Below, piece by piece: positions 26,749-64,000 of a DNA stretch of 64,000 bases. The notes below the pieces were generated by a model that saw only the letters and a program-made list of their open reading frames with translations, searched no databases and was not told the origin of the DNA. The stretch is taken from positions 1-64,000 of the forward strand of contig CAINDP010000138.1 of NCBI GenBank assembly GCA_903847405.1, written 5' to 3'. The position numbers and the translations under genes are program-made. This DNA is from an uncultured Myxococcales bacterium. Its GTDB lineage: Bacteria; Myxococcota_A; UBA9042; DTJE01. How positions within the stretch are numbered: position 1 is the first letter of the stretch; every line of letters starts with the position of its first letter.

Positions 26749-28329
26749 ATGGAACGAAAACTGGACCTGGATCCCGCAGCCATCCAGCGCTGTCGCCACG
26801 CGGCCGGCGCAATCGCCGACGAGGTCCTCGGCTTTGCCGCCGAACGGACGACGGTATCCATCGAACGGGCCGTCCTCCGCTGGATGGGCGTCGAGGGCGG
26901 CGACACGGACTGCATCCCCCTGGTGAATCGGGTGGTGGACGCCGCCGGCGTGGCGGGCCTGCTGGACCGGGGCGTCGCCCTGCCGTTCGCCGAGGCCGTG
27001 CGGGCATCCGGCCTGCCTCCCACCGACGCCGCGCGCGCCATCGCGGAGGGACGGTTGCCCCTCCGCGCGCCGGACGCAGAATTCGAGTCCGCGGCCAGGG
27101 ACATGGCCCGAACGCTGTCCGCCATCGGCGCCGACCGCGTCCGCCGCACGAACCGCACGCGCCAGCGCTTCCTGGAACGGCTGGGCGAGGGGTCCCGCCC
27201 GCTGCTGTACGTGATCGTGGCCTCCGGGAACATCCACGAGGACACGGTCCAGGCCAAGGTCTGCGCGAAGGCCGGCGCCCAGGTCGTCGCGGTCATCCGC
27301 TCGACGGCCCAGAGCCTGCTGGACTACATCCCCGAGGGCGCGACCACGGAAGGCTACGGGGGAACCTACGCGACCCAGGCCAACTTCCGCATCATGCGGG
27401 CGGCGCTGGACGACGCATCCGAGGACGTGGGCTGCTACGTCCGCCAGTGCAACTACGCGTCGGGCCTGTGCATGCCCGAAATGGCCACCCTGGGCGCCCT
27501 GGAGCGCCTGGACGTCATGCTCAACGACGCCCTCTATGGAATCCTGTTCCGCGACATCAACATGCAGCGGACGCTGACCGACCAGGCCTTTTCGCGCCGG
27601 GTGTCCGCGGCCGCCGGCCTGATCATCAACACCGGTGAGGACAACTACCTGACGACCGCCGACGCCTTCGACGCGGCCCACACCGTGCTGGCATCCGAGT
27701 TCATCAACGAGCAGATCGCGCTGCGCTGCGGCCTGAAGCCCGCCCAACTGGGCCTGGGGCATGCCATGCAGATGAATCCCTGGCGGGAGGACATGTTCCT
27801 GTACGAGGTGGCCCAGGCCCGCATGGCCCGCGAAATCTTTCCGGACTGCCCCCTGAAGTACATGCCGCCGACCAAGTACATGACCGGCGACATCTTCCTG
27901 GGCCACGTCCAGGACGCCCTCTTCAGCCTCGCCAGCGTCATGACCGGCCAGGGCATCCACCTGCTGGGCATGATGACGGAAGCGATGCACACGCCGCACA
28001 TCCACGACCGCACCCTGGCGCTGGAATCCACGCGGATGATCGCGACCGCCGCCCGGCACCTCGAGGACGAGATCGAATTCAAGCCCGGCGGGCTGATCCA
28101 GACACGCGCCCGGGTGGTCCTGGGCGGCGCGGTCGGGTTGCTGGAGCAGGTCCGCGACGAAGGACTGTTCGGGGCGCTGGCGCACGGACGCTTCGCGGAC
28201 ATCCGGCGGGCCCCCGACGGCGGCCGCGGCCTGGACGGCGTCGTGGTCAAGGCGACCGGCTACTGGAACCCGGTGGAAGATTCCCTGGACACCCTGCTGG
28301 CCGAACGCGACGCGGAGGTGGTGCGATGA
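26749..28329 (+). CDS. kamD: Lysine 5,6-aminomutase alpha subunit
   Basis: VASGNIHEDTVQAKVCAKAGAQVVAVIRSTAQSLLDYIPEGATTEGYGGTYATQ, MPPTKYMTGDIFLGHVQDALF. Confidence 0.93.
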   Translation: MERKLDLDPAAIQRCRHAAGAIADEVLGFAAERTTVSIERAVLRWMGVEGGDTDCIPLVNRVVDAAGVAGLLDRGVALPFAEAVRASGLPPTDAARAIAEGRLPLRAPDAEFESAARDMARTLSAIGADRVRRTNRTRQRFLERLGEGSRPLLYVIVASGNIHEDTVQAKVCAKAGAQVVAVIRSTAQSLLDYIPEGATTEGYGGTYATQANFRIMRAALDDASEDVGCYVRQCNYASGLCMPEMATLGALERLDVMLNDALYGILFRDINMQRTLTDQAFSRRVSAAAGLIINTGEDNYLTTADAFDAAHTVLASEFINEQIALRCGLKPAQLGLGHAMQMNPWREDMFLYEVAQARMAREIFPDCPLKYMPPTKYMTGDIFLGHVQDALFSLASVMTGQGIHLLGMMTEAMHTPHIHDRTLALESTRMIATAARHLEDEIEFKPGGLIQTRARVVLGGAVGLLEQVRDEGLFGALAHGRFADIRRAPDGGRGLDGVVVKATGYWNPVEDSLDTLLAERDAEVVR

Positions 28330-29102
28330 CCAACGACGACTCCCCGACCCGCATCCCGTCGGGCATCGACCTCCATGCGATCGGCCCCTATGGCGACACC
28401 CTGGGCGACGGCATCGTCCAGGTCTCGTTCAGCCTGCCGATTCCCGCCAGCCCCGAGGCCCGCGAAGCCGCGCGCAGACTGGCGGTGCAGATGGGCCTCA
28501 ACGAGCCGCAGATCTATCGCGAGGCCGACCTGGGATACGGGTTCTCGTTCTGGATCGTCTACGGCAAGTGCCGCCACCACGTGGACGTCACCCGCATCGT
28601 GGTGCCGAAGATCACGTCCGCCGCACTGTCCTTCGAGGAAATCAACGCCCTGGTGCTGGACAACGCGGGACGCCGCCTGCGGATCGTCGGGGCCTGCACC
28701 GGGACGGACGCCCACACCGTCGGCATCGACGCGATCCTCAACATGAAGGGGTTTGCCGGCGAATACGGCCTGGAGCGCTACCCGGCCTTCGAGGTGTTCA
28801 ACCTGGGCAGCCAGGTGACCAACGGGACGCTGCTGGCGAAGGTCCGCGAAACCGGGGCGGATGCCGTGCTGGTGTCCCAGGTGGTGACCCAGAAGGACGT
28901 CCACCTGTCCAACCTCGCGGAATGGGTCGACATGGTCGAGGCCGACGGCCTGCGCCAGGGCCTTCTCCTGCTCTGCGGCGGTCCCCGGATCACGCACGAA
29001 GTGGCCCTGGAACTGGGGTTCGACGCGGGGTTCGGAGCCGGCACGACCCCCCGCCAGGTGGCCGCATGGCTGGCCCAGGAATGGGTCCGCCGCAAGAAGT
29101 AA
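28326..29102 (+). CDS. kamE: Lysine 5,6-aminomutase beta (B12-binding) subunit
   Basis: GACTGTDAHTVGIDAILNMKG (DxHxxG B12 motif), QVVTQKDVHLSNLAEWVDMVE; 4-nt overlap with kamD. Confidence 0.93.
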   Translation: MTNDDSPTRIPSGIDLHAIGPYGDTLGDGIVQVSFSLPIPASPEAREAARRLAVQMGLNEPQIYREADLGYGFSFWIVYGKCRHHVDVTRIVVPKITSAALSFEEINALVLDNAGRRLRIVGACTGTDAHTVGIDAILNMKGFAGEYGLERYPAFEVFNLGSQVTNGTLLAKVRETGADAVLVSQVVTQKDVHLSNLAEWVDMVEADGLRQGLLLLCGGPRITHEVALELGFDAGFGAGTTPRQVAAWLAQEWVRRKK

Positions 29103-53746: not shown

Positions 53747-55726
53747 CTAGTCGTACACGCACTGGCCCTTGTAGCAGGTCTGGCCGTTCGCGCAGAGGCC
53801 CTTGCCTTCGTCGATCTGGCCGTCGCAATCGTCGTCCACGCCGTTGCAGATCTCGATGGCGTCCACTTCCGACAGGCCGCCGTTGCCCAGGCACACGGCT
53901 TCCAGGCCGTCCGCCGAGCAGGCCTTCACGCCGGTCGAGGCACAGGCCGACTGGCCGATGGTGCAGGTGGCGCCGACGTCGAAGCCCTCGTCCACCTGAC
54001 CGTCGCAGTTGTCGTCCACGCCGTTGCACATCTCGGCCTTCGGCCTGTCGATCACGCACTCGGCCCAGACGCCGGCCGCACAGGTTCGGTGACCCGTGCC
54101 GCACGCCGATTCACACGCCTGGGTCAGGCCTTCGTCGATCTGCCCGTCGCAGTCGTTGTCGACGCCGTCGCAGAACTCGCTGGAGATCTCGATGGCCGGG
54201 GTCAGGCAGAAGGCGCCCACGCCGGCCCCGTCGCACACCCACTTGCCACGCACCTGGCACGCGGAGCCCACGGTCTCGGTGCAGGTGGCGCCCAGGTTGT
54301 AGCCCTCGTCGACGTCGCCGTCACAATCGTTGTCCAGCCCGTCGCAGCCGCCGCAATCCTGCATCGCGTAGACGCCGTTCACGTCAAACCCGTCGTTCGT
54401 CGACTCAACGTCGGCGATCGGGGTCACGTTCACGATGCGGATCCGGTTGGCGGTCGTCAGGGTGCCCAGGTCGAATTCGTTCGCGACGTTCGGGCGCTTG
54501 TCCGTCGTCAGGTTGGAGGCCTGGCCCAGCTTGACCCAGTTCTTGTTGACGGTATCAAAGGCGTACACGTCGGCGTTTTCGGTGGCGTAGGCCGTGCTGC
54601 CCTTGTAGGTCTTCTCGGTGATCCGGAGGTCGGCGCCCGGGCCGTTCTGCACGGGGCAATCGAACTCGACCTCGATGAAGCCGTCGAAACCCAACGCGAA
54701 GAACACGCTGTCATCGTCCGTCGCGTCGAAGTCCAGCGCCTCGGCCGGGTTCGAGGAAACGGCGTTGACCGCGGCTCCCGCCTTCGTGGTGCCCTGGAAG
54801 AACGCGCTGACCCGGGCCGCGGCGTAGGGGGCCTCGTGGGGGCCTTCGTTGGCACCGGGGTACATGGAGGCGTCGTGGTCGTTGCAGTCGCCCATGCAGG
54901 AAGCCCACCCGTCGCCGTCCTCGTCGAATCCCTCGTCCGTCAGGCCGTCACAATCGTTGTCGATGCCGTCGCAGATCTCCACGGCCGTCGTAGTCGCCAG
55001 GGCTTCCTCGATCAAGGAGATGTCCGAGTCGGGCTTGAGGAACTTGGGGACGTTCTTGCCGCCGTGGGCGGCGAGGGTGGCCAGGAGCGCCTGATCAGAG
55101 GCATTGTCGTACGTGACGACCAGGGTTTCCACGCCGATGGCCTTGAGGGCATCGATCGCCGCAAGGGCGTCGCCGTCGCAGGTGTCGCCGCCCGCAACAA
55201 ACAGGATGACCGCGCGCGAGCGACCGTTCGACGCATGACCATTGTAATAGTCGCGAGCCTTGAGCAGGGCCGATCCCACGGCCGCCTTGCCGCCAATCTC
55301 GATGCCTTCCAGGCGGGAAACGATCCAGCCGTAGGGAGCGCCGGGCTCGACCGCCACGTCACCCACGTCGCAGGACGCCGGGCAGAGGTTCGTGTTGCCG
55401 CCGTCCTTCTTGTCGATCCAGGGGAACGTCAGGAGGCCGAAATCCACGGCCTTCTTGAGGTGCGGCAGGGTCCGCTTCATGGCGTCGACGACCAGCTGCC
55501 CGCGGGACAGGTACTTGCTGCCCTGCTTGTAGCCGGAAGGGTCGCCCATGCGCGTCGACGTGTCGACCAGCAGGAGCACTTCGGAGCCGACGCCACCGCA
55601 GGCCGCCGACTTGAAGGACCCCTGGGGCACCGTGGTCGTATCGGTTGCGGCCTCGGGCGTACAGCCGAACAGGCTGACGGCGCCCAGGACAATCGCGACA
55701 CAAAAGGCGCTGTTCTTCGTCTTCAT
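53747..55726 (-). CDS. VWA-domain lipoprotein with five MopE-type putative metal-binding repeats
   Basis: Lipobox (SLFGC); VLLLVDTSTRMG (VWA); CDGIDNDCDGLTDEGF and four further copies. Confidence 0.88.
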   Translation of the reverse strand: MKTKNSAFCVAIVLGAVSLFGCTPEAATDTTTVPQGSFKSAACGGVGSEVLLLVDTSTRMGDPSGYKQGSKYLSRGQLVVDAMKRTLPHLKKAVDFGLLTFPWIDKKDGGNTNLCPASCDVGDVAVEPGAPYGWIVSRLEGIEIGGKAAVGSALLKARDYYNGHASNGRSRAVILFVAGGDTCDGDALAAIDALKAIGVETLVVTYDNASDQALLATLAAHGGKNVPKFLKPDSDISLIEEALATTTAVEICDGIDNDCDGLTDEGFDEDGDGWASCMGDCNDHDASMYPGANEGPHEAPYAAARVSAFFQGTTKAGAAVNAVSSNPAEALDFDATDDDSVFFALGFDGFIEVEFDCPVQNGPGADLRITEKTYKGSTAYATENADVYAFDTVNKNWVKLGQASNLTTDKRPNVANEFDLGTLTTANRIRIVNVTPIADVESTNDGFDVNGVYAMQDCGGCDGLDNDCDGDVDEGYNLGATCTETVGSACQVRGKWVCDGAGVGAFCLTPAIEISSEFCDGVDNDCDGQIDEGLTQACESACGTGHRTCAAGVWAECVIDRPKAEMCNGVDDNCDGQVDEGFDVGATCTIGQSACASTGVKACSADGLEAVCLGNGGLSEVDAIEICNGVDDDCDGQIDEGKGLCANGQTCYKGQCVYD

Positions 55727-55867
55727 GATTCTTCTCCTGCCCCCAGGGCCTGGTTCTCCGCTTTCTTCGGCACCCCCTCCGAAAACCTTTAGAGGCGGAT
55801 GATCGCCGCAAGAGCAGGATCGACGCGCGCGGGCCGGAGATGCGGGGGGAGGCTCGGAGGGACGGAC

Positions 55868-55896
55868 TTGACCGCCGTCCCGGGGAACGGTACAAC
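55868..55896 (+). promoter_or_regulatory. Promoter of the cobalamin-riboswitch transcript
   Basis: TTGACC (55868-55873), 17-nt spacer, TACAAC (55891-55896). Confidence 0.6.
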
Positions 55897-55899
55897 CGC

Positions 55900-56045
55900 C
55901 ATGGTTCGACGGCGCAGGAAGCCGGTTTGATGCCGGCACTGCCCCCGCAACTGTAACCGGGGACGAACCCAGGGTGACCACGGGCGCGGGCGCGCCGGGA
56001 AGGTCTGGGGGAGAACGATCCGGAAGTCAGGACACTGCGCGTCGG
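55900..56045 (+). promoter_or_regulatory. Cobalamin (B12) riboswitch
   Basis: GCCGGTTTGATGCCGGCACTGCCCCCGCAACTGTAACCGG core, GGTGACCACGG, GGGAAGGTCTGGGGG, and B12-box-like AAGTCAGGACACTGC (56024-56038). Confidence 0.93.
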
Positions 56046-56077
56046 CCGCAAGCGCACGCTGTTTCGGGAGGAAACAA

Positions 56078-56206
56078 ATGCGTTCGGGCCCTCTTATACC
56101 CTCGCGACATCTGCGGCGGACATCAGGGACGGACCCATGGATCTTCCTGCCCGAACGGCGGCAAGGAGGGTTCCCATGCGGTTCGGTACCAGGAGTTCGT
56201 TCCTAG
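56078..56206 (+). CDS. Possible 42-aa upstream ORF between riboswitch and lipoprotein gene
   Basis: GGAGGAAACAAATG strong Shine-Dalgarno; open to TAG at 56204, overlapping the next start in another frame. Confidence 0.3.
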   Translation: MRSGPLIPSRHLRRTSGTDPWIFLPERRQGGFPCGSVPGVRS

Positions 56207-56676
56207 TTCAGTCGGTGGCGATCGTGGCGCTGTTGTCGTCCGGGGCGGGGTGTGACTCGGATTCCGGCAGCAGCGATCAGGACGCCATCCAGTCGGACGT
56301 GCCCACTGCGGCACTGGCCATCACGGGGTCGTACACCGACGGGTTCGGGGCGCAGCACGAGATCGCGTCCGACACGTGGGCGGTGACAGGCGACATGGGC
56401 GCGGGCCCGGTGACCAGCACCTTCCTCCTGACACGCTACGACAACACCTCGCACTGGGTGGTCGGGCAGAACGACGCGACCAACCAATTCAATGCGGGAC
56501 AATGGAGCCGCTTCGACTGGGCCACGGTGGGGGCGATCCTCTACTTCTGCCAGACGAGGTACGACGCGGCCGACGAGGCGGAGGCCCTGGCCGCGACGCC
56601 GGCCGACCCCACCGACCCGGTGGCCGGCGGATGCAGCGGCTTTCCCTGGACGGTGCTGACCCCCGTGGTCAAGTGA
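56176..56676 (+). CDS. Small lipoprotein under the B12 riboswitch, function unknown
   Basis: MRFGTRSSFLVQSVAIVALLSSGAGC lipobox; AAGGAGG-N5-ATG; ITGSYTDGFGAQHEIASDTWAV...QNDATNQFNAGQWSRFDW. Confidence 0.85.
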   Translation: MRFGTRSSFLVQSVAIVALLSSGAGCDSDSGSSDQDAIQSDVPTAALAITGSYTDGFGAQHEIASDTWAVTGDMGAGPVTSTFLLTRYDNTSHWVVGQNDATNQFNAGQWSRFDWATVGAILYFCQTRYDAADEAEALAATPADPTDPVAGGCSGFPWTVLTPVVK

Positions 56677-56712
56677 CGGGCCGGTTCCAGGCACATCCGG
56701 GGGAGGCGGCCG

Positions 56713-57482
56713 TGACGAATCCAGGAACGACGCGCATTCGAAGGCCACAACCGTCCTGGAGGGCGGCATGGGTGGCCGCAGGGATGGTCTGCTGGATCGG
56801 GGGATGCGGAGCCGACGAAGGACCCCAGGGGGTCGTCGCAGACCTGGTGGTGGAAGCCCCCGGGGCCAGCGGGGAGGCCTTCGGGGATCCGCAGAAGGCG
56901 GTCAATGGCGTCCGGGGAGGCGGCGACGCGACCGGAAGCACCGACGTCTTCTCGCTGGGATACGACACGGGCAGGAACGACGTCCTGGTGCTGCGATGGT
57001 CGGGACGCCGGGTCCAGAACGGCCCCGGGGCCGATCTGGTGGTCTTCGAAAACCCCTTCATCATCGCGAACGGCAAGGCGTCGTTCCTGGATCCGGCGAT
57101 CGTGTCGGTGTCGATGGATGGCGAGACGTGGGTCCAGTTCCCCCACGCCTACCTCGCGGCGGATCCGGCGACCTACTCGGCTGATTCCACGTCGTGGCAG
57201 GGTTTCGCCGGCCTGACCCCGGTTCGGTGGAACCAGGACAGGGCCGACGTGGACCCGTTCGACCGGGACGCTGCCGGAGGCGATGCGTTCGACCTGTCGG
57301 ACCTGCCGGCGGACGACGGCGAGGCGGACATCCTGAGGCTGGAGGGGTTCCGCTTCGTGAGAATCCAGTCGGCCGCAACGCAGGTCGATCCGCGCACGAA
57401 CGCCCCGTACCCCCACGATGCCGCGGCCACAGGCCCCGACATCGACGGCGTGGCTGCACGGTACTTCGCACCCGACCTGTAA
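56713..57482 (+). CDS. LIC_13355-like cell-surface lipoprotein, second gene after the B12 riboswitch
   Basis: Lipobox (AAGMVCWIGGC); NDVLVLRWSGRRVQNGPGADLVVFENPF...VSVSMDGETWVQFP...GPDIDGVAARYF; start codon uncertain. Confidence 0.75.
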
Positions 57483-57605: not shown

Positions 57606-58088
57606 GTGATCGAAGTCCTGCACGATCGGATCGACGCGTTCTTCCGGGCAGCCACCGAGGCCCAACCTGCGGCCTTTTCCTGCGCGCCGGGATGCGACGC
57701 CTGCTGCCGCGTGGACCTGGCGGTGTTCCCCGTCGAGGCCGCGAGGGTGCGGGCGGCATTCCAGGCGCTGACGGCCCAGGCGCGTCGGGACGCGGCGGCC
57801 CGCGCCAGGGCCGGGAAGCACTGCGCGATGCTGGACGGCGCGGGACGATGCCGCGTGTACGGGGCGCGCCCCGCGATCTGCCGAAGCCACGGCCTGGCCA
57901 TCCTGGTGGACGGCCGCCTGGATGCCTGCCCGAAAAACTACCGGGACGAAGCGCCGCGGCGCCCGCACGTGCTGGACATCGAGACACTGAACGAGGCGAT
58001 CGTCCGGGTGGATGCGGCCTTCGGTGGGCGCGGGGAACGGGTGCGCCTGGCGGACATCGCCGTCGAGGAGGACGGGGAGGCCCGGTAG
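57606..58088 (+). CDS. YkgJ-family cysteine-cluster protein
   Basis: FSCAPGCDACCRVDLAVFPVEA...HCAMLDGAGRCRVYGARPAICRSHGLA. Confidence 0.88.
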   Translation: MIEVLHDRIDAFFRAATEAQPAAFSCAPGCDACCRVDLAVFPVEAARVRAAFQALTAQARRDAAARARAGKHCAMLDGAGRCRVYGARPAICRSHGLAILVDGRLDACPKNYRDEAPRRPHVLDIETLNEAIVRVDAAFGGRGERVRLADIAVEEDGEAR

Positions 58089-58092
58089 GCTC

Positions 58093-58794
58093 CTAGCCCC
58101 GACGGATTATGGACGAGGGGTTGGTGCGCAGAGGCTGCTCGTCGCCGTAGACGACCTTGACCGAATCCAGGTCGGACAGGCCCGCCCGGTCCGCGATTTC
58201 GTCGATCCGGGCCATGATGTCGGCGTCGGTAGCGTCCTTCAGGGCTTCCATTCGCGGCGCCGCAGCGGCGCGCAGGGCGGACCGGCCCGGGAGAGGGGCG
58301 TTCGGGGCGGGCAGCGGCGGCGCCTCGAACCTCGGGGCGGGCGCGACGATCACCGGGGGATCGACCCTCGCCAGCACGCCGTCGATTTCACGCAACTGGA
58401 TCGCCAGAAGGTGGGCCACGCGTTCGACCAGCGCAGCGTCGATCGGTTCGATGGCCTCGCAGGCGGCCGCAAAGGTCGCCCGGTCGATTTCGAACAGGCC
58501 GGTTTCGCCGATCGCCCGGATCAGCGTCGCCCGCGGCTCGTCCACGAACAGTTCGTGGAGCCCGACGGCCTCCCCGGCCTTCAGCACGGCCATCCGCTGG
58601 CCGCCCGCCGAAAGCACCTCGAGTTCACCCCGGACGATTACAAAGGCGGATCCCTTGGGATCGCCCGGCTCGTAAAGAACTTCCCCATCCGCCAGACGTT
58701 GCCGCGCGAACCGCGTTGTCAGGCCAAGAATCGTGTCGTCGGGGAGCCCGTCGAAGAAGGCCAGTGTTTTCAGGTACGGGAGGAAGTTCTTCAA
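58093..58794 (-). CDS. Cyclic-nucleotide-binding-domain protein
   Basis: LKTLAFFDGLPDDTILGL...GDPKGSAFVIVRGELEVLSAGGQ...LKAGEAVGLHELFVDEPRATLI. Confidence 0.82.
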   Translation of the reverse strand: MKNFLPYLKTLAFFDGLPDDTILGLTTRFARQRLADGEVLYEPGDPKGSAFVIVRGELEVLSAGGQRMAVLKAGEAVGLHELFVDEPRATLIRAIGETGLFEIDRATFAAACEAIEPIDAALVERVAHLLAIQLREIDGVLARVDPPVIVAPAPRFEAPPLPAPNAPLPGRSALRAAAAPRMEALKDATDADIMARIDEIADRAGLSDLDSVKVVYGDEQPLRTNPSSIIRRG

Positions 58795-58798
58795 GCCA

Positions 58799-59323
58799 TT
58801 ACCGTCCGAACAACCGATCCATCAAGGATCGTCGGGCCTCACCGGCCCCGAGGGAGGAATTGGCGGCCCGCCGCTGGTCGACGACCTGGGTCGCCCGGGT
58901 CGAGGCCCGAACCAGCCGAACCGCCATCCCACGCGCCAGGTTGGCGACGAGACGGGTGGCTACAACGGGCTGTTCCGCGCGAAGACGGGCAAGGCCGCGG
59001 GCGTCGAGCACCCAGCACGTCGTGGAGCCCTTGGCGATCCCCAGCGCGCGGCGGGGATGGCCATCCAGCAACGCGGCCTCCCCGAACGCTGCGCCGCGCC
59101 CCATGCGGGCGAGGATCGTCTGGGAACCGTCGGGCTCGCGACGAAGCACCTCGACACCGCCGTCGGCGATGACGAAGAACGACTGCGCCCGGAGGTTCCC
59201 GGAAAACACCGTTTCACCCGGCAGGTACGATTCCCGACGCCCCACCTGGGCCAGCGCCGTGAAATCGTCCGGGGTCAGTCCGGAAAAGACAGTGGCGCCT
59301 CGAATATCGAAGTCTTGTGCCAT
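58799..59323 (-). CDS. Cyclic-nucleotide-binding-domain protein
   Basis: FSGLTPDDFTALAQVGRRESYLPGETVFSGNLRAQSFFVIADGGVEVLRR...GRGAAFGEAALLDGHPRRAL. Confidence 0.82.
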   Translation of the reverse strand: MAQDFDIRGATVFSGLTPDDFTALAQVGRRESYLPGETVFSGNLRAQSFFVIADGGVEVLRREPDGSQTILARMGRGAAFGEAALLDGHPRRALGIAKGSTTCWVLDARGLARLRAEQPVVATRLVANLARGMAVRLVRASTRATQVVDQRRAANSSLGAGEARRSLMDRLFGR

Positions 59324-61205: not shown

Positions 61206-64000
61206 TCAGGGGGTTACCGAGCCCATCTGCTGGAGGCCGACGCAGTACGCCGGGGTCGGGACCTGGCAGACGTAGACGGGCGTGCTGCCCTCCGCGTCGG
61301 TGCCGCGCCGGACCGCGCAGGTCTGGCCCGTGGGGCAGTCCGCCGAGTCCTTGGACGGATCGCAATCGCGCGAGCAGAACGCGGGCAGGTCCCACTTCCC
61401 GTCGCCGTTGGTGTCCACGGCCCGCCGCGGCTTGAATCCGCCGCCATCCGCGTCCACGCGGATCGGGTTCGTGGCGCCCCAGGGGAAGGTCGGATACGAG
61501 TCGGGCAGTTCGATGGACCCGGTCAGCGAGGACACGTCCAGGCCGAAGGCCGCGACGCTGTCCAGCAGGCCCGCGAAGGACGCCAGGATCTGGTCGGCGG
61601 CCAGGGCGATGACCGTGGAGATCAGGATGTTGCCGTACGACTCCCGCTTGTAGACCGGCGACAGGGCAGCCGCGGAATCGGTGCCGTAGGCGATGGCCAG
61701 GTACCACGCGTCCACGGCGGGCCGGTCCAGGGCGACGTCGCCCTCGAAGTCGATGATGTCCTCGGTCTTGCCGTCCGTGTAGATCTGCTTGACCAGCGCG
61801 CTGTTGCTCCAGATTTCGACGCGGTCCACACGGACCCACGACGGGGTCTGAACGCGCAGGTGGGCGATGATCTTGCCCGCGCCCTTCGCGGTCAGCGTGC
61901 CGCCGATGTCGACCGGCTTCCCGCCCTCCTCGCGCAGGGTCATCTGGATGTAGGGCCCGGCCGAGATCGTGGCCTTGCCGGCCTTGTAGGCCCGGTTCAT
62001 TTCGTCGCGGTCGACGGCCGACGGGGTGTCGGTGCCCAGGGAGATGTACGTCCGCGGGGAACCGATTTCCTTGGACGTCCCGTGGGAGTCCGAGTTGCCG
62101 ATGCCGATGACGTCGAAGCCCACGTCCAGGAAATGGAACCAGTCCTCCAGTACCTCGAACCGATCGGTGCAGGGGCGGACGTCGTCCGCCGGACATTCGT
62201 CCCGGCACCACAGGACGCACTGGGTCGTCCAGCCGGTGCCGCCGTCGTCCACCGACTTGGCGCACAGGGGGTGGTTCTTCGAGACGCAGGCAGTGCAGGC
62301 GTCCTTCTGGCTGCACCCGATGTCCAGAAGCCTGGTCGGATCCGCGGCGACTCCGGCTTCCGAAGCCGTCTGGAAGTACGCGTCGTTTTCCTGGGGCGTG
62401 CGCTCGACCTGGTAGCGCACGGACATCGCCTTCAGGCCTTCGAGGGCCTGGCGCTTGCACTCCAGCATGCTGCGGTCCGCCGTGCACGCGTCGAAGGCGG
62501 CGCGGGCCTCCTGGTGCCACCGGCAGTGGTCGCGACCGACGATCCAAGCGGACCGGGTCGCCTCGGGCAAGGTCGTGTCCGCGGCCTGCGTTTCCGCCTC
62601 GGCGCAGTTGGCGATCGGGTCGGCCAGCAGCCAGGCGCAGATCGAGTCGCTGCCGTTGTACGCGAACTGCGTCTTGTCCTTGACCCCGAGAATCTCCCGG
62701 TAGCAACGGTTGTGGCGCTCGGTTTCGCCGACCGTGGGGGTGTGCAGGTACTGGAGGTTCTTGCCGTTCATGATTTCGATCGACGAGAAGTCGCAGGGCG
62801 CCTCCTCCATGACCTGGTTGCACATTTCCATGCCGGGCGTCTTGCGCGACAGGTCGTACCCCTTCATGCCGATCTGCGCGAAGTAGCCCATGAAGCCGTC
62901 GCGGGGGTGGTTCACCTGCAGCACGAAGGCGTCCTTGGGACCGTCCGCCTTGGCGAGGATCGCGTCGAAGAACTGGCGCACCGTCAGGCCGTGCCACTTC
63001 GGCGGATCGTGGTTGAAGCCCTTCGTGGCGTCGAAGGTCATCGGGAAGCCGATGTAGTGCCCGTATTCCAGCGGCGAAATCTCGGCGGACAGTTCGAACT
63101 GGAAGAACGCCTCGAGGCCGCCCTTCAACACGTAGGGGAGGTAGTCCACCTGGTCGTCGTGGTCCGTGGCGGCGAAGAACTCGACGCCTTCGGCCGCGGC
63201 GGTCTTGACCCGGGTCTCCATCGCGAGGCCCGAATCCACCGACCGTCCGGCGTGGACGTGGAAGTCGGCGCCGATGTTGTCGCGGGTGTCCACTTCGCGA
63301 ATGAGGCCCATGCGCAGGGGCACCTTTTCGCCCGCGCGGACCTCGAAGTCCTCGACGACCGACAGGCCGTACTCGAAGCCGCGGGACGCCGTCACCTTGT
63401 AGAGGCCGGGGGGCAGGGTCAACGACCCGGCGCCCTCGGTGGAGTGCTCCAGCTTCATGACGCCGTGGTCGTAGCGGCTGTCGCCCAGTTCGACCTGGCT
63501 GAGGCCGTCCCAGTCCAGCACCTTGCCGGTCGCGTCCAGGCGCTGGAACGTCAGGCGCGCCGGGACCAGCATGCCGCCATTGTCCGTGATGCGGTACTCG
63601 ACCTCGCCGGGACCCGGCAGGACCAGGTTCACGCGCACGGTGCCGTCCTTGGCGACCGTGACGGGCTCCAGGGCGGATTCCCCGCGGTCCGAGGCGTGGG
63701 CCATCACGAAGTAGCGCCCCGGAGGCACCGGGGCGTCGAAGGCCCCTGAATACTGGGGCGCCACGCCCACGTCCGTGAGCATCTGCATGGCCAGGCCGGA
63801 GTTCGCGAATTCGGCCTGGGCCATCGCACGGTACTCGATCCACGTTTTCGGGGCGGCAGCCGTCGGGTCGGTCCGCGGATCCTTCAGGACGAAGACGTCC
63901 ACGTGACGCAACGGGGTCAGGGACCCCTCCTCGAAGACCGTGCCCGTCACGTTGCCCACGGGAGTGTTCCGGAGGGCGAACAGGTGCTTGACGGCCGAGG
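61206..64000 (-). CDS. PHP-domain metallohydrolase-like surface protein (CehA/McbA-like), N-terminus cut by window edge
   Basis: Reading frame stays open to 64000 (SAVKHLFALRNTPVGNVTGTV); NIGADFHVHAGRSVDSG, FFAATDHDDQVDYLP, LQVNHPRDG, GIGNSDSHGT. Confidence 0.82.
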   Translation of the reverse strand, partial: SAVKHLFALRNTPVGNVTGTVFEEGSLTPLRHVDVFVLKDPRTDPTAAAPKTWIEYRAMAQAEFANSGLAMQMLTDVGVAPQYSGAFDAPVPPGRYFVMAHASDRGESALEPVTVAKDGTVRVNLVLPGPGEVEYRITDNGGMLVPARLTFQRLDATGKVLDWDGLSQVELGDSRYDHGVMKLEHSTEGAGSLTLPPGLYKVTASRGFEYGLSVVEDFEVRAGEKVPLRMGLIREVDTRDNIGADFHVHAGRSVDSGLAMETRVKTAAAEGVEFFAATDHDDQVDYLPYVLKGGLEAFFQFELSAEISPLEYGHYIGFPMTFDATKGFNHDPPKWHGLTVRQFFDAILAKADGPKDAFVLQVNHPRDGFMGYFAQIGMKGYDLSRKTPGMEMCNQVMEEAPCDFSSIEIMNGKNLQYLHTPTVGETERHNRCYREILGVKDKTQFAYNGSDSICAWLLADPIANCAEAETQAADTTLPEATRSAWIVGRDHCRWHQEARAAFDACTADRSMLECKRQALEGLKAMSVRYQVERTPQENDAYFQTASEAGVAADPTRLLDIGCSQKDACTACVSKNHPLCAKSVDDGGTGWTTQCVLWCRDECPADDVRPCTDRFEVLEDWFHFLDVGFDVIGIGNSDSHGTSKEIGSPRTYISLGTDTPSAVDRDEMNRAYKAGKATISAGPYIQMTLREEGGKPVDIGGTLTAKGAGKIIAHLRVQTPSWVRVDRVEIWSNSALVKQIYTDGKTEDIIDFEGDVALDRPAVDAWYLAIAYGTDSAAALSPVYKRESYGNILISTVIALAADQILASFAGLLDSVAAFGLDVSSLTGSIELPDSYPTFPWGATNPIRVDADGGGFKPRRAVDTNGDGKWDLPAFCSRDCDPSKDSADCPTGQTCAVRRGTDAEGSTPVYVCQVPTPAYCVGLQQMGSVTP

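Follow-up and report, generated by a model that had tools for sequence, protein, structure and literature searches.

A cobalamin riboswitch-controlled lipoprotein pair of an uncultured myxococcal bacterium: a likely accessory module of cobamide capture with a remote relative of the BtuH domain

Introduction

Surface proteins that capture B12 are so far known mainly from gut Bacteroidetes. BtuH (BT_1488/BT_1956, PDB 7BIZ) and BtuGH (BT_1490, PDB 8BLW) are riboswitch-controlled lipoproteins encoded in a btu context, and in BtuGH of B. theta, where a beta-propeller is fused to a BtuH domain, cobalamin is bound by both halves (PMC12751083). In BtuH2, Asn399 contacts the nucleotide-loop phosphate and Phe401 contacts the lower ligand (PMC8941943); the work on BtuH covers Bacteroidetes and three cases from Firmicutes (PMC8941943). 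BtuG is a YncE-like, seven-bladed beta-propeller lipoprotein that captures B12 at the cell surface together with BtuB, and BtuJ-type proteins bind B12 with a jelly-roll domain, DUF4465 (PF14717).

The locus described here lies in a window of 64,000 nucleotides (the whole stretch of DNA that was analysed) from an uncultured Myxococcales bacterium and encodes two lipoproteins, LP1 and LP2, behind a cobalamin riboswitch. LP2 resembles BtuH in being a riboswitch-controlled lipoprotein with btu associations, in a core motif that includes the phosphate-contact Asn and the lower-ligand Phe and, like the BtuH half of BtuGH, in being fused to a beta-propeller in some lineages. Unlike BtuH, LP2 lacks PKD domains, comes with LP1 as its partner and occurs in Myxococcota, Leptospirales and other phyla; the likeness is detectable at the profile level only. 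BtuG differs from both LP1 and LP2 in being a propeller, and the likeness to the BtuG system consists in the presumed surface capture of B12 with BtuB and in a BtuG-like propeller that is encoded in the btu operon of the same genome and is fused to LP2 elsewhere. The BtuJ-type proteins share the presumed task of LP2 but show no sequence relation to the pair (hhalign 0.2-0.7%).

The riboswitch and the two-gene operon

The aptamer core at 55915-56037 of the forward strand matches the RF00174 cobalamin riboswitch model (positions 45-169) with 85.1 bits (E 1.5e-19), far above the gathering score of 31.5, so that the cobalamin riboswitch claimed in the sequence-only reading held when checked against Rfam. 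It is preceded by a candidate sigma-70-like promoter, TTGACC-17-TACAAC (55868-55896, forward strand), which would place the transcription start close to the 5' edge of the aptamer. The -10 hexamer lacks the final T, and a strict promoter scan misses the site; a loose count that accepts 9 of 12 positions finds seven sites on the forward strand of the 64 kb, this one being the only such forward-strand site within 55000-57000. The hexamers and the spacing are thus as originally read, and the rating of the promoter is lowered from well-formed to plausible.

Downstream of the aptamer, folding predicts a hairpin (56130-56185, forward strand) that covers the Shine-Dalgarno sequence (AAGGAGG, 56163-56169) and the start codon of LP1 and is inferred to be the likely expression platform. 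The folding z-score for 56038-56190 is -2.0, and pairing of the CTTCCTGCC / GGC(A/G)GGAGG type is found also in the congeners L037 and L041. No transcription terminator was found downstream of the riboswitch, and a terminator was accordingly rejected as the expression platform. Given this absence, and a hairpin over the Shine-Dalgarno sequence and start codon that is kept in two congeners, translational control is the likely mode of the riboswitch, an inference from sequence alone.

LP1 occupies 56176-56676 of the forward strand, as read before, an in-frame ATG at 56137 being a less likely alternative start. LP2 extends from a GTG start at 56712 to 57482 on the same strand; the previously given start, 56713, is one base off (a reading from there meets four stops in frame), so that the original extent held only in part. 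LP2 has the lipobox IGGC at Cys32, and the lipobox cysteine is kept across the LP1 family and across the LP2 family. The YkgJ-type gene noted behind the lipoproteins is confirmed at 57606-58088 (PF03692, 35.2 bits). It was rejected as a member of the operon and is probably outside the system because only one of the two congeners has it downstream.

Among the other genes around the locus, the divergent neighbour of the riboswitch (53747-55726, reverse strand), which is conserved in divergent orientation in both congeners, encodes a VWA domain and MopE-type repeats, and a stretch of it recalls the LP2 motif (NGPGADL, FDLGTL, GFDVNGV) without ENxF. Two adjacent small proteins of the cyclic-nucleotide-binding type are encoded at 58093-59323 (reverse strand) and a metallohydrolase of the CehA/McbA family, beyond a phosphoglucomutase gene, at 61206-63959 (reverse strand).

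LP2 is a remote homologue of the BtuH domain

LP2 belongs to the LIC_13355 family (NF033170, 170.5 bits, with a curated cut-off of 120), has no match in Pfam, and is not illuminated by a sequence search of the PDB. A profile of LP2 relatives, built without any BtuH protein, retrieves Bacteroidales proteins with E-values of 3e-8, 8e-7, 4e-6 and 7e-6, and these represent the BtuH family, whose members match PDB 8BLW and 7BIZ. Direct profile comparison (hhalign) of LP2 with BtuH yields 94.2% (E 1.1e-7); all the controls (DUF4465, LP1, the propeller, BtuB, BtuF and BtuC) remain below 1%. With the 18 Myxococcota sequences only, the hhalign probability is 26% (E 7e-4), so the stronger link to BtuH requires the full family. 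The AlphaFold (AF2) model of LP2 (pLDDT 89.6, pTM 0.83) has as its top match among 350,542 PDB chains 8BLW_B (E 4e-4), the BtuG1 chain that carries a BtuH domain, and discoidin/CBM32 (F5/8-type) sandwiches rank next; the Foldseek match is modest, with a TM-score of 0.43 on the query.

The similarity to BtuH spans about 52 columns around a single motif, in which E113-N114-x-F116 of LP2 aligns to the GNAF of BtuH. Of 116 LP2 domains, 100% have N114 and 91% have F116, and these residues fall on Asn399 and Phe401 of BtuH2; the numbering of 7BIZ (offset 100) was verified by locating each of the eight contact residues that have been published. The BtuH2 contacts Gln333, His476, Tyr510, Trp511 and Trp577, which face the corrin and the ribose, lie outside the aligned block. 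Profile comparison and the AlphaFold model show LP2 to be a remote homologue of the BtuH B12-binding domain, at the profile level only; that LP2 binds B12 is a prediction, made because the ENxF motif falls on the residues of BtuH2 that contact the phosphate and the lower ligand.

Two other assignments of LP2 were rejected. Kinship with BtuG is contradicted by the confident AF2 model, which resembles BtuH-bearing BtuG1 and F5/8-type sandwiches and is not a seven-bladed beta-propeller, and by the comparison with the propeller profile (0.1%), and kinship with DUF4465 by an hhalign value of 0.2%, LP2 not qualifying as a PF14717 (BtuJ) domain. BtuG, initially taken as the model for these lipoproteins, is therefore replaced by BtuH as the nearest known relative.

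LP1 is tied to B12 by association only

LP1 is a distant relative of LIC13354 and not a member of that family by the NF047669 model (20.8 bits, E 3.8e-4; curated cut-off 130). The family alignment delineates a domain of about 100 residues with conserved Cys125 and Cys153. There is no match to LP1 in Pfam, the PDB sequence search is uninformative, and no relation to any solved protein, to BtuH, to BtuJ or to BtuG is detectable: hhalign against DUF4465 gives 0.7%, with no PF14717 domain, and the comparison with the propeller profile 0.1%, without a seven-bladed beta-propeller of the BtuG kind. The evidence that places LP1 in a B12 system is association alone, and corrinoid binding by this protein can be inferred at most, as a possibility. 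LP1 could itself bind B12, as a second domain of that kind, or could serve as a docking part through which LP2 is presented to the transporter, a suggestion that rests on its repeats, the two invariant cysteines and its fusion to LP2.

Fusions of LP2

LP1 and LP2 are encoded in one ORF at four loci (L050, L051, L056 and L058), and a BtuG-like propeller and LP2 share one ORF in seven genomes. The latter layout is that of BtuGH of B. theta, and the propeller from the btu operon of the present genome matches several of these fusions, with single-sequence E-values down to 1e-23. Three of the propeller-LP2 fusions (L044, L049 and L059, in genomes G165, G078 and G058) are accompanied by btu genes in genomes without a detected RF00174 riboswitch; control by B12 through another element is possible there. 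In Bacteroidales, LP2 and DUF4465 (BtuJ-type) domains are found in one chain (L120:421-2133, also L098, L108, L113 and L116), and those checked carry a T9SS sorting tail.

Association of LP2 with B12 riboswitches and btu genes across bacteria

A LIC_13355 gene above the cut-off is present in 28 of 284 Myxococcota genomes. In 16 of the 28, the present genome included, an RF00174 riboswitch precedes the gene on its own strand, mostly directly before LP1 or LP2; seven of the other 12 carry propeller-LP2 fusions, six of these beside btuB or btuFCD. The estimated chance of a gene falling within 2 kb downstream of a same-strand riboswitch is of the order of 3e-4, assuming about 1.5 riboswitches per genome.

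An independent collection of 85,462 species was the source of the 80 best LP2 relatives, from many phyla. A custom riboswitch model places a same-strand upstream riboswitch at 63 of these 80 loci, and 65 of 66 riboswitch matches are on the strand of LP2. When eight weak cases were rechecked at the Rfam gathering level, three were confirmed and five (L081, L082, L117, L127 and L136) did not reach it; with these five dropped, the conservative count is 58 of 80. The tie of the homologues to B12 riboswitches elsewhere, a check proposed together with the original reading, is therefore strong (16/28 in Myxococcota, 58-63/80 among the nearest relatives), with no riboswitch detected in about a fifth of the LP2 relatives; many of the loci without one have btuB, btuFCD, BtuG-like or BtuJ-like genes next to them. 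The 80 loci also include btuB homologues (31 loci), propellers (36 loci) and DUF4465 (BtuJ-type) domains as neighbours or fusion partners of LP2 (about 19 loci). A same-family relative (L042/L076) has the gene order riboswitch-LP1-LP2-btuB-propeller and, judging from this order, the two-gene operon of the window is likely to be a version of the same operon with the transporter genes located elsewhere.

The pair in Leptospirales

LP2 is found in 26 of 30 Leptospirales genomes and follows LP1 in 22 of 27 loci, the same gene order as in the window. Riboswitches above the gathering level precede Leptospirales loci in two classes, RF00174 in four and AdoCbl-II (RF01689) in two (L156:3360-3439 and L157:351-430, before LP1-LP2); five further loci have sub-threshold matches to RF01482 that are correctly placed. 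The occurrence of two riboswitch classes before the same gene pair is a strong argument against accident. No paper that joins AdoCbl-II with Leptospira was found in the open literature searched. Another Leptospirales locus (L172:761-3805) has the operon LP1-LP2-DUF4430-DUF6580-btuB-like, in which DUF4430 and the DUF6580 membrane protein are possibly further parts of B12 uptake.

LP2 exceeds the cut-off of the family named after LIC_13355 of Leptospira interrogans, which is a neighbour by locus number of LIC_13354; both genes are about 3.7-fold up in rat-implanted chambers (PMC3953431). In assays with recombinant LIC_13355 that had been refolded from inclusion bodies, the protein bound laminin, plasminogen and endothelial cells (PMC11891782). 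The two proteins differ from the present pair in being described as host-induced and, for LIC_13355, as an adhesin, without a link to B12 (PMC3953431, PMC11891782); the reported binding by the refolded protein does not exclude B12 binding. Published lists of Leptospira riboswitches contain btuB and cob loci only (PMC3493377, PMC3953431), and no paper that joins BtuH with Leptospira or ties LIC_13354/LIC_13355 to B12 was found in the open literature searched, so that the B12 link of these genes appears to be new.

The B12 system in the rest of the genome

The genome contains two cobalamin riboswitches, one at the LP1-LP2 locus and the other on contig C99, where it heads btuB, a YncE-like (BtuG-like) propeller, btuF, btuC and btuD (an ABC ATPase). 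The C99 btuB has TonB-B12 as its top NCBIfam match (126 bits, under the cut-off), and btuF and btuC have BtuF and BtuC as best matches, both also under the cut-off. Homologues of btuB, btuF, btuC and btuD were not found in the 64 kb window. The original statement that the locus has no transporter accordingly held for the locus and the window and failed for the genome.

CbiC, the only biosynthesis family checked, was not found in this genome, which is 97% complete. There are 28 B12-binding domains above the cut-off, including that of lysine 5,6-aminomutase beta of the window; the alpha and beta subunits (KamDE, 26749-29102) score 759 and 354 bits, both over the cut-off, which bears out their earlier identification. 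The cell thus looks, with CbiC as the sole biosynthesis family considered, like a probable scavenging user of B12.

Proposed function and alternatives

What is shown is the riboswitch, the gene order, the conserved linkage, the fusions, the remote homology of LP2 to BtuH, the separate btu operon and the failure to find CbiC. The reading that probably accounts for them is that LP1-LP2 is an accessory cobamide-capture module whose partners in trans are BtuB and the BtuG-like propeller; binding, surface location, hand-over and mode of regulation are inferred, and there are no binding data. In this scheme, when cobalamin in the cell is low, the riboswitch would keep the start of LP1 accessible, so that the two lipoproteins would be produced; when cobalamin is bound, the hairpin would hide the Shine-Dalgarno sequence and start codon of LP1 (an inferred translational OFF state). 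The BtuH-like beta-sandwich of LP2 would bind B12, its ENxF loop gripping the nucleotide-loop phosphate, as inferred from homology. LP2 would hold the scarce cobamide on the outer surface and hand it to the propeller-BtuB complex, with BtuFCD completing the import, these hand-over partners being encoded under the other B12 riboswitch of the genome. The hand-over is proposed by analogy with BtuH and the BtuBG model in B. theta (PMC10404256). The original reading of both lipoproteins as B12-binding or B12-salvage proteins is supported, for LP2 through the homology to BtuH and for LP1 through association only, corrinoid binding remaining an inference.

The alternative that survives best is that LP1 and LP2 are regulated by B12 without binding it, as scaffold, vesicle or assembly factors of the uptake machinery, the role that BtuL seems to have in B. 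theta. In its favour, BtuL, a lipoprotein of a B12-regulated operon, did not bind cobalamin (PMC12751083), BtuK2 bound none although BtuK1 did (PMC12751083), and LP1 has no known relative. Against it stand the homology of LP2 to a domain whose complex with B12 has been solved, the retention in LP2 of the Asn that contacts the phosphate and of the Phe that contacts the lower ligand, and the fusion of LP2 to a BtuG-like propeller, which parallels that of BtuH in BtuGH. For the pair, this alternative is unlikely; for LP1 alone, it is quite possible.

A second alternative, that the family consists mainly of surface adhesins that bind extracellular matrix or other surfaces and for which B12 is a mere regulatory cue, draws on the binding of laminin, plasminogen and endothelial cells by LIC_13355 (PMC11891782) and on the resemblance of the LP2 fold to discoidin/CBM32 sandwiches. 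It is very unlikely, given that most members of the family occur in environmental bacteria, beside btu genes and B12 riboswitches and that the LIC_13355 protein assayed had been refolded (PMC11891782). Equally improbable is that the pair handles cobalt, cobinamide or another tetrapyrrole under B12 control and not complete cobamides: B12 riboswitches control cobalt transport and synthesis genes too in other bacteria, and conservation of the remaining BtuH contacts in LP2 is unproven, but the neighbours are btuB, BtuG-like propeller, btuFCD and BtuJ-type genes, and the conserved Asn matches a contact with the nucleotide-loop phosphate, which is part of complete cobamides only.

Implications

With LP1-LP2 as a likely cobamide-capture module, a riboswitch-controlled putative capture protein related to those of the Bacteroidetes, together with a regular partner, would be present across Myxococcota, Leptospirales, Planctomycetota and others. 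A bolder reading, somewhat less likely than not, is that the pair is a phylum-spanning cobamide-capture module, LP2 representing a BtuH branch outside Bacteroidetes and LP1 a B12-binding fold that is new, with LIC_13354 and LIC_13355 of pathogenic Leptospira being B12 scavengers. The former currently counts as a hypothetical protein and the latter as an adhesin, and both would have to be re-read as B12 scavengers if this is true. The analysis offers a proposed function for two families annotated by locus tag only, and it allows the LIC_13355 'adhesin' to be read in a new way.
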